From positions 366,901 to 430,900 of the forward strand of contig NZ_WLZY01000005.1 in assembly GCF_010122465.1 (NCBI RefSeq): DNA of 64,000 bases, written 5' to 3'. The position numbers and the translations under genes are program-made. Source of the stretch: Phytoactinopolyspora mesophila (GTDB lineage: Bacteria; Actinomycetota; Actinomycetes; Jiangellales; Jiangellaceae). Shown here piece after piece: positions 34,655 through 41,493 of this stretch (position 1 is the first letter of the stretch; every line of letters begins with the position of its first letter). Under the pieces are notes generated by a model. It saw only the letters and a list, made by a program, of their open reading frames with translations. It was not told the origin of the DNA and searched no databases.

Positions 34655-36553
34655 ATGGTGAGCGCGGAACAGTTGACAATGGTGCGCGATCTGATCGCGG
34701 ACCTTCCGGTGGCAGCCGATCCGCAGCTGTCATCCGACGGCGCCTGGGTCGCATGGATGGCCGGCCCTCCGACCAAGGCAGATGACCATTTCACCGGGTC
34801 GGTGTGGCTTGCCCCAACCGATGGCTTGACGCCACCCAGGCGGCTCACCGCTGCGGGGAAACACCGTGATCACCATCCGCGATGGTCACCGTCGGAGGGC
34901 ACGATCGCGTTCTTGTCCGATCGCCATGATCGGGGAACCGATGCTGTGATGTGTATATCCGTCGACGGTGGCGAAGCGGAGCCGTTGGTGCGTCGTGAGC
35001 GGAGCATCGAGACGTTCGCGTGGTCTCCGGACGGTCGCCGGATCGCCTTCGTCGCTCCGGATGAGCCGGACGAGGAGGACCAGCGCCGTGAGCGGGAGCG
35101 CGACGACGCCGACGTTTACGGAGAACGCTGGCCCTATGCGCGCCTGTACCTCGTCGATATCGACGACGGCGGTGTCACCGCACTGCCCAGCGGAGACCGC
35201 AACGTCACCGGCATAGCCTGGTCACCGGACGGCACGTCCATCGGATTCGTGGCAGCGCCCACCCCCGAGCTCGACAGCGGCGCGCAGGCGGAAATCTACC
35301 GGCTCGATGTCAGGTCTGGCGCTGTGCGACGCCTGTGTGCCGCTCCCGACGCACACTGGCTGACGTGGCTGAGTGACGGTCGGCTGCTCTGGACCGGATG
35401 CCGGAGTGGGCATCGTCGTGCCGCCCTGGCTACCTGGTCGGTCGCCGAAGATGGTGGTGAGCCGCGTATGGTGACGCGCCGCGACGACGTCTGCGAAGTC
35501 CAGGTGCAGCCGGTGGCTGGTGGCGATGGTGCCGTCGTCGCTGTTGCTGAAGGAATGGCCACATGGTTGCGCTGGGACGACGACGAGAAGCTCGGCTACG
35601 ACGCCCCGGGAGCGGAGATCCGTGGACTCGCGGTGGCGCATCCAACGGGCAGCGCGCCGGTCCTGGCCGTGGTTCGTAGCCGGGGTGACCAGCCACCGGA
35701 GTTGTGGGCGGGTTCGCCGGAGTCCCTGCGGCAGATCAGTGAGCACCAGGCTTCCTGGCATGGTCTCGAACTCGGCCGGCAGCGGCCGTTCGAATGGACC
35801 GCGCCGGACGGCTTGCGCCTCGACGGCCTGGTCCACGTCCCGCCGCGGCACCCGGGTGGGCCATTGCCGGCGGTTGTACTCGTTCACGGTGGACCGTACG
35901 CGCGATGTACGACGGGTTTCCACGTCTATCCGCTGCACTGGGCCCAATGGCTGGCCCTGCACGGGTACGCCGTATTGGAGCCGAACTATCGCGGTGGAGC
36001 GGGACGGGGCGACGAGTTCGCGGTCGCTGCCAGGTCGGGTGTCGGAGGCGACGAGTTCGGTGACGTCATGTCCATGGTGGACGCTGCCGTGGCGAGAGGT
36101 ATCGCCGATCCGGACCGGCTGGGTATCGGCGGATGGAGTCAAGGTGGTTTCATGACCGCCTGGGCGATTACTCAGACCGACCGCTTCAAGGCGGGGGTGA
36201 TGGGGGCCGGAGTCAGCGACTGGGGTGGGCTCACGATGAACACCGACATGCCGGTCTTCGAGAGCCAGCTGTGCGGCGGCACGCCATGGGACGGGCCGGG
36301 GCCCCATGAGTGGGCGCGGCGTTCACCCATCTCGTTCGCCAGCCAGGCGTCGACACCGCTGTTGATCCTCCACGGCGAACAAGACCGGCGGATCCCGGTG
36401 GGCCAAGCCGTCGGGTTCGCTCGCGCGCTCCGGCAGTACGGGTGTCCGGTGCGGCAGGTGGTGTATCCGCGGGAGGGGCACGCCGTCGCCGAGCGCCAGC
36501 ATGTCCTGGACGTCCACGATCGGGTCCGCGACTGGTTCGCACGCTGGCTCTGA
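34655..36553 (+). CDS. S9-family prolyl oligopeptidase-like peptidase
   Basis: A 632-residue protein with a seven-blade beta-propeller (repeats such as FAWSPDGRRIAFVAPDE and IAWSPDGTSIGFVA) in residues 1-370 and an alpha/beta hydrolase domain behind it. The triad is Ser495 (GWSQGG), Asp577 (HGEQDRRIPVG) and His609 (REGHAVAE). No signal peptide, so it is cytoplasmic. The family cuts short peptides or N-acylated residues. Monocistronic, ending in a hairpin. Confidence 0.93.
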   Translation: MVSAEQLTMVRDLIADLPVAADPQLSSDGAWVAWMAGPPTKADDHFTGSVWLAPTDGLTPPRRLTAAGKHRDHHPRWSPSEGTIAFLSDRHDRGTDAVMCISVDGGEAEPLVRRERSIETFAWSPDGRRIAFVAPDEPDEEDQRRERERDDADVYGERWPYARLYLVDIDDGGVTALPSGDRNVTGIAWSPDGTSIGFVAAPTPELDSGAQAEIYRLDVRSGAVRRLCAAPDAHWLTWLSDGRLLWTGCRSGHRRAALATWSVAEDGGEPRMVTRRDDVCEVQVQPVAGGDGAVVAVAEGMATWLRWDDDEKLGYDAPGAEIRGLAVAHPTGSAPVLAVVRSRGDQPPELWAGSPESLRQISEHQASWHGLELGRQRPFEWTAPDGLRLDGLVHVPPRHPGGPLPAVVLVHGGPYARCTTGFHVYPLHWAQWLALHGYAVLEPNYRGGAGRGDEFAVAARSGVGGDEFGDVMSMVDAAVARGIADPDRLGIGGWSQGGFMTAWAITQTDRFKAGVMGAGVSDWGGLTMNTDMPVFESQLCGGTPWDGPGPHEWARRSPISFASQASTPLLILHGEQDRRIPVGQAVGFARALRQYGCPVRQVVYPREGHAVAERQHVLDVHDRVRDWFARWL

Positions 36554-36574: not shown

Positions 36575-36848
36575 TGCCGGACGATCTTGGCGACGTTCTC
36601 CAATACGGGCCGGTTCTCGATTGTGGGGAGCGGCCACGATTTGTGGGATCGTCCCAATTGCCGCGATCCTTGCTGGTGAATACCGCAACTGCGCGGCGAG
36701 CGACCGGTCCGGGAAAGTGTGATGGAGTGCCGGTGCTCCCAACGATGGTGCACGCTTGTCCGAGCGGCGTGGGTCGGAGGCGAGCCCGGTAGACCGGAAC
36801 CGCAGTGGAATCCCCGCGGTGTGGCTGGAACCAAGCTGGAGGACATCG

Positions 36849-37475
36849 ATGACCGAGCCCGACCGAACAGCCCGCACGTCCGGACCGCGCCGGCTGCCCG
36901 CCGCGGACATGGCTCGGGTTGCGGTGTTCGCCGCCCTGATTGCCGTGCTAGGCCTGCCCGGATCATTCAGCCTGTTCGGCAACGCCGTCCCGATCACACT
37001 CCAGACACTCGGAGTGTTGCTGGCCGGTGCCGTCCTCGGAGCCTGGCGCGGCTTGCTGTCGGTCCTGTTGCTCCTGGCTGTTGTTGCCGCCGGCCTTCCG
37101 CTGCTGGCAGGTGGCCGCGGTGGCCTCGGGGTCTTCGCCGGGCCTTCCGTCGGCTACCTCATCGGTTGGGCGGCGGCCGTGTTCGTCGTCGGCTGGCTCG
37201 TCGAACGCGGGGGGCGGCGACCGGCACTGATGTGGGTCCTGCCGGCTTGCCTCCTCGGCTCCGCGCTCATCCTGGTCATCGGCGTGCCGATCCAGGCGCT
37301 GGTGACGGGCGTCCCCCTGGACACCACCATCAAGCTCTCCCTGGCTTTCCTACCCGGCGATGCCGCGAAGTCGGTACTGGCTGCCGTGGTTGTGTTGGGC
37401 GTTCAACGGGCCTATCCAGAGGCGGCCCCGGCGGTGCGGCGTGCCCGGCGGGAGAGGTATCCCACGTGCCGGTAG
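36849..37475 (+). CDS. bioY: BioY-family biotin ECF transporter S-component
   Basis: A 208-residue membrane protein with six hydrophobic segments. The family blocks NAVPITLQTLGVLLAGAVLGAWRG and PLLAGGRGGLGVFAGPSVGYL identify BioY. It binds biotin (or a precursor) with very high affinity and works with an EcfT/EcfA energising module, or alone at low rate. GGAGG lies before the ATG at 36849. It overlaps the next gene by ten bases and starts a four-gene operon. Confidence 0.93.
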   Translation: MTEPDRTARTSGPRRLPAADMARVAVFAALIAVLGLPGSFSLFGNAVPITLQTLGVLLAGAVLGAWRGLLSVLLLLAVVAAGLPLLAGGRGGLGVFAGPSVGYLIGWAAAVFVVGWLVERGGRRPALMWVLPACLLGSALILVIGVPIQALVTGVPLDTTIKLSLAFLPGDAAKSVLAAVVVLGVQRAYPEAAPAVRRARRERYPTCR

Positions 37476-38896
37476 CCAGAGACGTACTCGCGCACGCCGC
37501 GAAAAGCCCGGACATGGTGGCCCTTCGCTCTCCTGGGCGTACTCGAACCTACGGGCAGCTCGGTGCCGACATCTCGGCGGCCGTGGGCGCGTGGTGGGCC
37601 GCGGGCGTGCGTCCCGGCCGGTTGGTGGCCGTGGACCTGGCCGAGCCGATTGACCTGCTGACCGCGGTGCTGGCCGCGGATCTGATCCGGGCGACGCCGC
37701 TGGTCTGTGATGCGTCCTGGTCCGCGGAGCAGAGAACGGCCGTGCTCGGCACCATCGGTCCCGACCTCCATGTCCGTGACTGGCCACCCGCGTCATACGG
37801 CGACGCGGGCGTGACCACCGGGCCAGAATCCGCCACCTTGGCCGGGGCACCCGCACCGTACGACGTCGCATGGGCCGGTTTCAGTTCGGGGAGCACGGGT
37901 CGGCCCCGGGCGGTGGCCCGGACTCGGGCCTCGTGGACCGGCTGCTATCCGGCTGTGGACAAGCTGACCGGCATGACCAGCGAAGACACGGTGCTGGTGC
38001 CGGGGCCGCTCGCGTCGTCGCTGTACTGCTTCGCGGCGCTACACGGGCTGGCCACGGGTGCGTCGGTCACTGTGACCGGCCGATGGGCGTCCGGTCTGGT
38101 GCGGTCGTATCTTGCAGACTCCGACGTCGTCCACCTGGTGCCTCATCTTCTCGAGCACGTTGTCGGCGAGCTTGCGTCGATGGGGCCTTCCCGGCTGCGT
38201 ATGGCCGTGTCCGGTGGCGCCGGGTTGCCGGCCGGACTGCGTGAGCGGGCTGGCGCGGCTGGTCTGGACGTCGTCGAGTACTACGGCGCGGTGGAGTTGT
38301 CCTTCGTCGCCGTGGACGCCGATGGCTTGGGGCTTCGGCCTTTCGACAATGTCGAGATCGACGTGCGCCAGGTGCCCGGCAGCTCGGGCCTGGGTGAGGT
38401 CTGGGTCCGGTCGCCATGGCTGGCCGAAGGCTATCTGGCGGGAGCAACCGGGCCATTCCGGCGTGATGACGACGGCTGGGCGACGGTGGGTGACCTGGCC
38501 GAGGCTGATTCGTCCGGTACGCGTGCGCTGAGGCTCAGAGGCCGTGGAGACGGCGCGGTGGTCACTGGTGGAGCCACGGTGGTGCCGGAGGATGTGGAAG
38601 CTGTTCTCGGCGGGGTCCCCGGGGTGCGAGACGTCGTTGTGGTGGGCACGCCACATCACTGGCTCGGTTCAGTTGTCACGGCGGTGATCGAGACCGCCGG
38701 CCCGCCGGTGCGGCGCAAGATCCTCGAGGCGGCGGCACGGCGGGAGCTGACACCGGCGCAGCGGCCGCGTCGCTGGTATGAGGCGGACCGGTTGCCGCGA
38801 ACACCGGCGGGGAAGCCGGCGCGGGCGATCATCGCCGAGGCTCTGATCGACGGCCGGCCGGACCACTCCGGCACGAGCATCCGGCTGATGAGGTGA
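37466..38896 (+). CDS. Class I adenylate-forming enzyme (acyl-CoA ligase-like) in the bioY operon
   Basis: A 476-residue enzyme of the ANL superfamily. The P-loop is SSGSTGRPRA (residues 140-149), the Y-G-x-x-E motif is YYGAVE, and the C-terminal catalytic Lys is residue 450 (RTPAGKPAR). It should activate a carboxylic acid as acyl-AMP and pass it to CoA or another thiol. The GTG at 37466 has GGAGAGG upstream. Position between bioY and a thiolase gene matches Bacillus yhfT, whose substrate is also undefined. A pimelate-like or fatty acid substrate is inference. It is short for a FadD (usually above 500 residues). Confidence 0.85.
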   Translation: MPVARDVLAHAAKSPDMVALRSPGRTRTYGQLGADISAAVGAWWAAGVRPGRLVAVDLAEPIDLLTAVLAADLIRATPLVCDASWSAEQRTAVLGTIGPDLHVRDWPPASYGDAGVTTGPESATLAGAPAPYDVAWAGFSSGSTGRPRAVARTRASWTGCYPAVDKLTGMTSEDTVLVPGPLASSLYCFAALHGLATGASVTVTGRWASGLVRSYLADSDVVHLVPHLLEHVVGELASMGPSRLRMAVSGGAGLPAGLRERAGAAGLDVVEYYGAVELSFVAVDADGLGLRPFDNVEIDVRQVPGSSGLGEVWVRSPWLAEGYLAGATGPFRRDDDGWATVGDLAEADSSGTRALRLRGRGDGAVVTGGATVVPEDVEAVLGGVPGVRDVVVVGTPHHWLGSVVTAVIETAGPPVRRKILEAAARRELTPAQRPRRWYEADRLPRTPAGKPARAIIAEALIDGRPDHSGTSIRLMR

Positions 38897-40098
38897 CGGC
38901 CGTGCAACGACGTGACGCCGTGGTGGTGGCAGCCCGCCGCACCCCGATCGGCACGGCGGGCCGGAGCCTGAGCGGCATCACCGTCGACCAGCTGGCCGCG
39001 CCGGTCCTGGCTGCCACCGTTCAGGAGCTCCGGGAATCCGGTGTTGGAGCTCGTGTCTCATCGTCGGATGCCGGGCTGGATGTAGCCGATGTCGTCCTGG
39101 GCAACTGTATGGGTCCTGGCGGCAACGTGGCTCGGGTCAGCGCGTTGTCAGCGGGACTGGGAGTCAGCGTGCCGGGCGTCACGGTGGATCGGCAATGCGG
39201 GAGCGGCCTGGCGGCAATCCTGCAGGCAGCACAGTCCGTGCGGGCAGGGGACGCGGACCTTGTGCTGGCCGGTGGCGCCGAAAGCGCGTCGACCGCGCCA
39301 CTGCGGGCGCACCGCGGCTCGGGCGCCGAACCGGACGTGGTGTACGAACGGGCGCCGTTCACCCCGCCGGAGTTCGGTGACCCGGACATGGGTGTCGCGG
39401 CCGAAACACTGGCCACGGCGCGAGGTGTCAGCCGGCGGCGTCAAGACGCCTATGCCGCCGCCAGCCACGCGAAAGCGCTGGCAGCACGGGATGCCGGCCG
39501 CTTCGAGGCGGAGCTGGTCGCTGTCGGCGGTTTGCACCACGACGAGCGTCCGCGCTCCCTGCGCGCCTCGACCCTCGCCCGAATGCCCGCGGCGTTCGTG
39601 CCGGGCGGAAGCGTCACCGCGGGCAATTCGTGCCCGGTCAGTGACGGCGCTGCCGCCGTCGGGATCGTCACCTCCGGCGCCCGGAGCGGCGTCGCGGGAT
39701 TGCGCCTGGTCAGCGGCGCTATCGTCGGATGCGATCCCCGACAGCCCGGTTGGGGCCCGGTTCCGGCCACCGAGCGGGTGCTGGAAGCGGCCGGGTTGAA
39801 AATCGGTGATGTCGCCGCTGTCGAAATCGTCGAGGCATTCGCCGGACAGGTCCTCGCGGTGACCGATGCGCTCGGTCTCGACCCGCTTGGTCGTGACGCC
39901 GACGTCGTCTGTGCTGACGGCGGCGCCCTGGCGCTCGGCCATCCGTGGGGCGCGAGTGGCGCGGTTGTGGTGGTGCGGCTGTTCAGCCGCCTGGTGCTCG
40001 GCGGCGCGCCGGCAGGGACACTCGGCCTGGCGTGCGCTGCCGTGGGCGGTGGCCTCGGTGTGGCCGCGCTGTTCGAGGTGGTTCGAGGCCCGTGCTGA
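38893..40098 (+). CDS. Thiolase (acetyl-CoA C-acyltransferase) in the bioY operon
   Basis: A 401-residue thiolase. The nucleophile Cys102 (VDRQCGSGLAAI), His350 (ALGHPWGASG) and Cys381 (LACAAVGGG) are all present. The usual NEAFA block reads VEIVEAFAGQ, so Asn is replaced by Val-Glu, which may alter activity or direction. The GTG at 38893 overlaps the ligase stop (GTGA). With the ligase it would cleave or extend a beta-keto acyl-CoA. The same neighbour set (bioY, ligase, thiolase) occurs in Bacillus as yhfUTS under biotin repressor control. Confidence 0.88.
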   Translation: MTAVQRRDAVVVAARRTPIGTAGRSLSGITVDQLAAPVLAATVQELRESGVGARVSSSDAGLDVADVVLGNCMGPGGNVARVSALSAGLGVSVPGVTVDRQCGSGLAAILQAAQSVRAGDADLVLAGGAESASTAPLRAHRGSGAEPDVVYERAPFTPPEFGDPDMGVAAETLATARGVSRRRQDAYAAASHAKALAARDAGRFEAELVAVGGLHHDERPRSLRASTLARMPAAFVPGGSVTAGNSCPVSDGAAAVGIVTSGARSGVAGLRLVSGAIVGCDPRQPGWGPVPATERVLEAAGLKIGDVAAVEIVEAFAGQVLAVTDALGLDPLGRDADVVCADGGALALGHPWGASGAVVVVRLFSRLVLGGAPAGTLGLACAAVGGGLGVAALFEVVRGPC

Positions 40099-40691
40099 CA
40101 GGCGCCTACGTGGCTCGCCCGTCGCCTCTGCACCGGATCCCCGCCGGGCCGAAGCTGGCAGCACTGGCGGGGGGCTGTACAGCGTTGTTGCTGGTGCGAA
40201 CCTTGCCCGGGGTCGTTGTGGGCCTGGCGGCCGTGGTGGTGCTGTACGCGGTGGGCCGGATCCGGCCTGTCGAAGCATGGGTCCAGGTCAGACCGTTGCG
40301 TTGGTTCATGGCGGTGCTGCTCGTCGTCCAGCTCTTGATCACCGATGTCGGCACGGCGGTCTCGCTGACTTCGCGGATCGTGCTGGCGGTGGCGCTGGCC
40401 GGACTTGTCACCCTGACGACGCGCACGACTGATCTGATGGCGGCCATGGAGCGAGGGCTCGGGCCGTTGCGCCGCGTCGGCGTGGACCCGGTCCGGGTGT
40501 CGCTGATGATGTCGTTGCTCATCCGCAGCGTGCCGGTCGTGACCGGGATAGCTCAGCGGGTCCGCGATGCTCAGCGTGCCCGAGGGCAAGAACGCAGCAT
40601 CCGCGCCTTCGCGGTGCCGTTGGTGGTCGGCGTGCTGCGCTACGCGGACACTCTCGGCGAGGCGCTCCAGGCGCGCGGCATGGACGACTAG
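40092..40691 (+). CDS. ECF transporter T-component (CbiQ/BioN family)
   Basis: A 199-residue membrane protein with four to five helices. The C-terminal coupling region contains the family's ARG motifs (RDAQRARGQE and ALQARGMDD), which contact the ATPase. The GTG at 40092 overlaps the thiolase gene by seven bases. It is the partner expected for BioY, but no EcfA/BioM ATPase gene lies in the window, so the ATPase must be elsewhere or shared. Confidence 0.88.
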   Translation: MLTGAYVARPSPLHRIPAGPKLAALAGGCTALLLVRTLPGVVVGLAAVVVLYAVGRIRPVEAWVQVRPLRWFMAVLLVVQLLITDVGTAVSLTSRIVLAVALAGLVTLTTRTTDLMAAMERGLGPLRRVGVDPVRVSLMMSLLIRSVPVVTGIAQRVRDAQRARGQERSIRAFAVPLVVGVLRYADTLGEALQARGMDD

Positions 40692-40737
40692 AACATGACC
40701 GACGACGGCGCACACCGGTGAGATGAGGAACAGGCCG

Positions 40738-41493
40738 ATGCAGGTAGCAAGGCTCGGGCTGACACCAGTCAAAGGCATGGCCCACGTCGCTCTGCCCGAG
40801 GTGGAGCTCACCCGCGGCGGTCCGCTTCACGACCGGGTGTTCTGCGTGGTCGAGGCAGACACCGGCCGGGTCTTGCGCACCGTCGAGAACGACATCGCGA
40901 TGGCGTGCGAGGCGGTCTGGACACCACCAGTGCTGACCATTCGGGCACCGGGCGGGGACGCGAGTGGCGAGGTGTCAGAGGGCGCGCTGATCGCCGGACA
41001 GTATTGGGACCGGGAACTGAAGCTGAATGTGATCGAGGGGCCCTGGGCCGGGCTGCTGAGCCGGCACTTCGGACGGCCGGTACTGCTCTGCCGGGTGGCG
41101 GGTCCGGAACGTGCGATATGGGCGGGCTCAGTGTCCCTGGTGACGACCTCATCACTGGCCGAAGTGGCCCGGCGAACCGGGTGCGGCCACGACGACGGCG
41201 CGCGGTTCCGGCCCACCATCGTGGTCGACACCGGCGAGGCACCGGCATTCGTCGAAGACACCTGGGTGGGATCGAGGCTGCGGATCGGTGCCGCCGTCGT
41301 CACTGTGGAAGAGCGGCTGCCACGATGTGCGGTGGTCGACCGGCGTCCCGCGGCGGGTGGACATGATGTCGCCGTTCTGCGCGCTCTGGCGGCCGACAGA
41401 CGCGACGGCAACGAGATCGTCTTCGGTGTCTCGGGCGAAGTCGAACAGCTGGCCCGCGTCGCGCTGGCCGACCCGGTGCGGCTCCTGGGCTGA
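40738..41493 (+). CDS. MOSC-domain protein with N-terminal beta-barrel
   Basis: A 251-residue protein. Residues 1-75 form the MOSC N-terminal barrel (VARLGLTPVKGMAH), and the MOSC domain follows (RFRPTIVVDTGEAPAFVEDTWVGSRLRIG) with the conserved Cys in LPRCAVVDRRP. Relatives (YcbX/YiiM type, mARC) handle N-hydroxylated substrates or molybdenum cofactor sulfur. GAGGAA lies before the ATG at 40738; an ATG at 40723 is an alternative. It starts 46 bases after ecfT and may be read through with it. Confidence 0.85.
   Translation: MQVARLGLTPVKGMAHVALPEVELTRGGPLHDRVFCVVEADTGRVLRTVENDIAMACEAVWTPPVLTIRAPGGDASGEVSEGALIAGQYWDRELKLNVIEGPWAGLLSRHFGRPVLLCRVAGPERAIWAGSVSLVTTSSLAEVARRTGCGHDDGARFRPTIVVDTGEAPAFVEDTWVGSRLRIGAAVVTVEERLPRCAVVDRRPAAGGHDVAVLRALAADRRDGNEIVFGVSGEVEQLARVALADPVRLLG

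Follow-up and report, generated by a model that had tools for sequence, protein, structure and literature searches.

A biotin-transporter operon with an acyl-CoA ligase and a thiolase-fold enzyme that lacks the Claisen base in Phytoactinopolyspora mesophila

The Bacillus subtilis genes yhfU-yhfT-yhfS and the Staphylococcus aureus genes yhfS-yhfT belong to the BirA regulon (PMC6391492, PMC7235819, PMC11089781), as the initial annotation of the DNA described here had noted for the B. subtilis trio. We analyzed a bioY-acyl-CoA ligase-thiolase-ecfT operon of Phytoactinopolyspora mesophila, located in a stretch of 64,000 nucleotides (contig NZ_WLZY01000005.1, positions 366,901 to 430,900, the window). 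Like the B. subtilis and S. aureus systems, which lie within the biotin regulon, it combines a BioY protein, an acyl-coenzyme A (CoA) ligase and a thiolase-type enzyme; it differs from yhfU-yhfT-yhfS in having ecfT inside the operon and in scores far under those that NCBI requires for the families matched best. The likeness to YhfS is drawn from the published descriptions and from an NCBIfam top match that stays under its curated cut-off. The other related system is the BioMNY transporter encoded by bioYMN in Corynebacterium glutamicum (PMC3398298): in both cases BioY and a BioN-type protein are encoded in one operon and a BioM-type gene is present in the genome, but here the bioM gene lies at a separate locus, and bioY and bioN are parted by the genes of the two enzymes. 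The operon is a variant of an arrangement already known but unexplained; new is that three features come together: the operon persists in genomes where biotin synthase was not found, its thiolase family has no Claisen base, and bioM stands at a second locus.

The operon consists of four genes, each with a Pfam match exceeding the curated cut-off:

36849..37475, + strand: bioY, S component of an energy-coupling factor (ECF) biotin transporter; ATG start behind GGAGG; Pfam BioY 116 bits (cut-off 25)
37466..38896, + strand: acyl-CoA ligase of the ANL superfamily; GTG start; Pfam AMP-binding 94 bits, AMP-binding_C 43 bits
38893..40098, + strand: thiolase-fold enzyme without Claisen base; GTG start; Pfam Thiolase_N 172 bits, Thiolase_C 93 bits
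40092..40691, + strand: ecfT, a bioN-type T component; GTG start; Pfam CbiQ 46 bits (cut-off 25)

The four overlapping genes are therefore as initially annotated. Successive overlaps are 10, 4 and 7 bases, so that the genes are probably co-translated. The same gene order, with no BioM-type gene inside, is kept in all 17 relatives for which the locus was read, which argues against a chance arrangement. The source genome (6.5 Mb, 99.5% complete) has a single BioY gene.

The third gene product shares its fold, the nucleophile Cys89 and His348 with the biosynthetic and degradative thiolases of the Zoogloea ramigera type, in which Cys378 is the base of the Claisen step, while Asn316 and His348 are oxyanion-hole residues (PMC3406046). 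The corresponding codons are:

39196..39198, + strand: nucleophile Cys102 (Cys89 of the Zoogloea thiolase), retained
39829..39831, + strand: Val313 at the Asn316 position of the NEAF motif
39940..39942, + strand: His350 (His348 of the Zoogloea thiolase), retained
40039..40041, + strand: Ala383 at the Cys378 position, Claisen base absent

All 108 aligned members of the family retain Cys89 and His348, whereas the Cys378 position is always occupied by Ala, Ser or Gly and never by Cys. All 25 comparison thiolases, taken from viral contigs, have retained Cys378 (four of these 25 are fragments that do not cover Cys89). The family differs from these enzymes at further positions: Asn316 is replaced in most members, with Asn found in just 14 of the 108, a Met invariant among the comparison thiolases is changed to Pro in 102 of the 108, and Cys takes the place of Ser in the AGN motif. 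Since the 108 members come mostly from Actinomycetota, half of them from Nocardia and Rhodococcus, they do not represent 108 independent losses of Cys378. The predicted structure (predicted local distance difference test score, pLDDT, 91.7) is a plain thiolase fold, with template modelling (TM) scores of about 0.84-0.88 against solved thiolases. Because Cys378 is absent family-wide, normal thiolase activity appears doubtful; the enzyme may instead transfer an acyl group from the CoA ester formed by the ligase.

The ligase, for its part, has intact catalytic residues: Asp343, Arg360 and Lys450 are invariant in an alignment of 30 sequences, and the features of the ANL superfamily, an adenylation domain and a C-terminal catalytic Lys, are present. 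It has its fold and catalytic residues in common with MenE, MatB and related acyl-CoA ligases, at an identity of about 20-26% to solved structures, and its model (pLDDT 86.5) resembles MatB, MenE, FadD13 and other ligases. The operon ligases of Nocardia, Rhodococcus, Knoellia and others have only about 350-375 residues, much of the N-terminal part being missing. Nocardia and Rhodococcus were also seen to have a second acyl-CoA ligase gene after bioN (L034:10550-11917, L037:10805-11755), and in loci of the Rhodococcoides corynebacterioides type this second, post-bioN ligase is the only one detected. Assignment of the two enzymes to NCBI families was dropped as the curated cut-offs were unmet: the ligase reaches 179-195 bits of the 518 needed for PRK07638, a paralogue elsewhere in the genome scoring 193, and the thiolase-fold enzyme 294-296 of the 498 needed for PRK06690, although its locus is still the best in the genome for that family.

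BioB, biotin synthase, is the final enzyme of biotin synthesis. BioB was not found in the source genome, where the one match was weak (37 bits against a cut-off of 225), and none of 22 genomes of the order had a match above the cut-off. Among 45 other genomes carrying the operon enzymes BioB was found in 23 and not found in 22; completeness figures are lacking for these 45, and a few of the absences may be assembly gaps. The source organism is apparently unable to make biotin.

The distribution of the operon was derived from tblastn matches, except for annotated plasmids. The thiolase-fold enzyme is present in all 20 near-complete genomes of the family Jiangellaceae, which are all the near-complete genomes sampled from the order. 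Outside the family it is rare at the cut-off used (seven of the 396 genomes sampled across the phylum, source genome included, with a few candidates scored per genome). In a scan of named genomes 80 loci were identified, most of them with the order bioY-ligase-thiolase-bioM-bioN; such loci occur in Nocardia, Rhodococcus, Agromyces, Leifsonia, Nonomuraea, Sphaerisporangium, Microbispora, Haloechinothrix and others, and in Blastococcus and Geodermatophilus a bioY/bioM/bioN group in the opposite orientation lies near the ligase-thiolase pair. The annotation of an Azospirillum plasmid reads ATPase-EcfT-BioY-ligase-thiolase, an order matched by sequence search on Sinorhizobium and Streptantibioticus plasmids. 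The conservation across phyla proposed in the initial annotation is supported, the pair being linked to BioY in many families of Actinomycetota and on alphaproteobacterial plasmids. Bacillota relatives were found neither by the genome-contig scan, which returned Actinomycetota, nor in the plasmid search among the best matches listed, and no neighbor beyond the five genes recurs widely across genera among the matches listed. On Rhizobium plasmids the order thioesterase-ligase-thiolase was observed (L200:7020-10134, L204:4988-8146, L205:5027-8140), the thiolase of the first having Gly at the Cys378 position; the thioesterase partner may be a hint at the chemistry.

The initial annotation considered the missing BioM-type ATPase odd. 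No ATPase gene was found within the operon or directly adjoining it, nor a BioM-type one elsewhere in the window, but a genome search with the Nonomuraea BioM as the query found a single BioM-type gene on another contig (G000:C1:1040325-1040963; 63% identity, 264 bits), all other matches in the genome scoring at most 98 bits. One clear BioM counterpart is present in nearly every genome of the family. In 12 relatives the gene immediately preceding bioM encodes a putative neutral zinc metallopeptidase (Pfam PF04228, 250 bits); in the source genus this gene was not found next to bioM. In an incomplete basal relative (G003) the metallopeptidase gene (64% identity) is followed by bioY-bioM-bioN, with no ligase or thiolase (L165:1990-4807).

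In phylogenetic trees the BioM proteins of the family group with the G003 BioM (support 99/97), while BioY and EcfT of the family fall with their Nonomuraea-group counterparts and apart from those of G003; the operon ecfT groups with BioN of the bioY-ligase-thiolase-bioM-bioN operons. The opposite groupings are rejected only moderately (approximately unbiased test, p 0.026-0.042). Among the possible histories the trees moderately favor one in which an incoming cassette of bioY, the enzymes and bioN, having lost its own bioM, replaced the resident bioY and bioN, and the resident bioM was kept. The genome encodes two further CbiQ-type T components, and beside each of them lie two ATP-binding cassette (ABC) ATPase domains, which leaves the T component of the window and BioM as the unpaired ones; by elimination, EcfT of the window probably works with the separately encoded BioM.

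The link to the biotin regulon could be followed in other carriers. The palindrome TTGAAC-N3-GTTCAA (TTGAACNNNGTTCAA), which agrees with the BioQ motif TGAAC-N3-GTTCA (PMC3398298), occurs exactly once per locus in 53 of 55 Nocardia and Rhodococcus loci (898 kb), at bioY or just upstream, and not at all in 666 kb of other actinomycete loci. An identical or one-mismatch palindrome lies 74-190 bases upstream of the bioB match in seven of the eight bioB regions read, six of the seven being from Nocardia or Rhodococcus and one from Knoellia. The palindrome at the operon together with similar sites before bioB supports control by biotin supply in Nocardia and Rhodococcus, and BirA with biotin represses yhfS-yhfT in S. 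aureus (PMC6391492). The proposed regulon link is thus probable, but it does not extend to known operators in the family of the source organism: the BioQ-type operator TGAAC-N3-GTTCA is absent from the window, and candidate BirA-type and BioQ-type operators before bioY were sought in the family with none found. A possible operator of another kind precedes bioY in the window:

36641..36657, + strand: conserved upstream box TTGTGSN7CYAA (TTGTGGGATCGTCCCAA), possible operator; no second match in the window (chance expectation 0.13)

The box occurs once per locus, 88-209 bases 5' of bioY, in 16 of 16 relatives, the pattern having been derived from those same upstream regions. A TTGTGG box common to the operon and the bioM loci was rejected, as none was found at the bioM loci. 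BioR-type boxes (TTATMKATAA) had no exact match in four plasmid loci, and the two one-mismatch matches were far from the operon. Four Agromyces/Leifsonia loci (L084, L086, L088, L102) apparently share, as judged by eye, a distinct element upstream of bioY, CCAAAATC ... TTGTACGG; the operator may thus differ by clade.

We propose, with a probability of about 0.45, that the operon is a biotin-uptake unit with a two-enzyme side module used under biotin scarcity. BioY and BioN would import biotin, probably energized by the BioM encoded elsewhere. The ligase would activate a carboxylic acid to its CoA ester, and the thiolase-fold partner, having no base for Claisen or retro-Claisen chemistry, would accept the acyl group on Cys102 and most likely hand it to another acceptor; the module would not serve for making pimelate. 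Because distantly related bacteria have the same gene set, the likely role of the two enzymes is in coping with scarce biotin and not in precursor synthesis. As a weakly supported guess, the acid may be biotin or a side-chain variant imported by BioY, the pair trapping or salvaging biotin. It seems unlikely, though conceivable, that more specifically the ligase converts a biotin-type acid to its CoA ester, whose acyl group is then transferred or altered by the partner as a Cys-His acyltransferase, so that auxotrophs gain or hold vitamers unusable directly by biotin protein ligase.

Several observations weigh against the proposed scarcity module. The modeled ligase fold is generic, indicating no single substrate in structure comparison, and acyl transfer is deduced from the missing residue alone, while another residue could serve as the base. 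The TTGTGSN7CYAA box of the source genome matches no known biotin operator, and the reading frame of the single biotin ligase of this genome, at 250 aa, has hardly enough space for a DNA-binding domain at the N terminus. The ligase-thiolase pair of Knoellia and Janibacter does not adjoin BioY, which is encoded elsewhere in those genomes. Around the related pair on the Rhizobium plasmids the annotation of the 15-19 kb read shows no bioY, so that the chemistry of the pair need not concern biotin.

The strongest competing explanation is a biotin-sparing lipid response, which we regard as possible but rather unlikely. Acetyl-CoA carboxylase falters under biotin shortage; the ligase might then activate free fatty acids and its partner shuttle acyl groups between CoA and acyl carrier protein or further carriers, lowering the demand for malonyl-CoA. 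Such a response would account for control in common with BioY even if neither enzyme acts on biotin, and it is also compatible with a Cys-His acyl carrier that has no Claisen base. In B. subtilis the yhfT mutant produces less surfactin, as do mutants of three other ligase genes, but YhfT is not one of the two ligases characterized in vitro (PMC7960918), and the short N-terminal part of many operon ligases is unexpected in a long-chain fatty-acid ligase. We consider it distinctly improbable that the pair is an ordinary thiolase and fatty acyl-CoA ligase situated beside bioY and unlinked to biotin: the fold and overall sequence of the third protein are thiolase-like, but linkage to bioY is stable in many families of two phyla and the residue at position 378 is never Cys. 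The main suggestion of the initial annotation, that the pair yields or recovers a pimeloyl thioester for biotin synthesis, can be practically dismissed, because no biotin is obtainable by that route without BioB, which was not found in the source genome, in the 22 genomes of the order or in 22 of the 45 other carriers, and the thiolase-fold enzyme has no Claisen base, even though ligase-thiolase chemistry could in principle handle dicarboxylic acids and both bioB and the operon have BioQ-type sites in Nocardia and Rhodococcus; its variant, import of a biotin precursor that would still need BioB, fails likewise.

As to the surroundings of the operon, a gene for an S9-type prolyl oligopeptidase (34655-36553) precedes it, with lasso peptide isopeptidase as the best NCBIfam match, well under the cut-off. 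A MOSC-domain gene (40723-41493) lies downstream of ecfT, and a match to it was seen downstream in five of the relatives read.

Genes of the yhfTS type belong to the biotin regulon of model Gram-positive bacteria. That the pair persists in genomes lacking biotin synthase disposes of the pimelate idea in their case, and the loss of the Claisen base in a family of "thiolases" alters which chemistry is to be tested. A split transporter, with bioM left at its old locus after an apparent replacement of bioY and bioN, would be a clear case of the exchange of ECF components.

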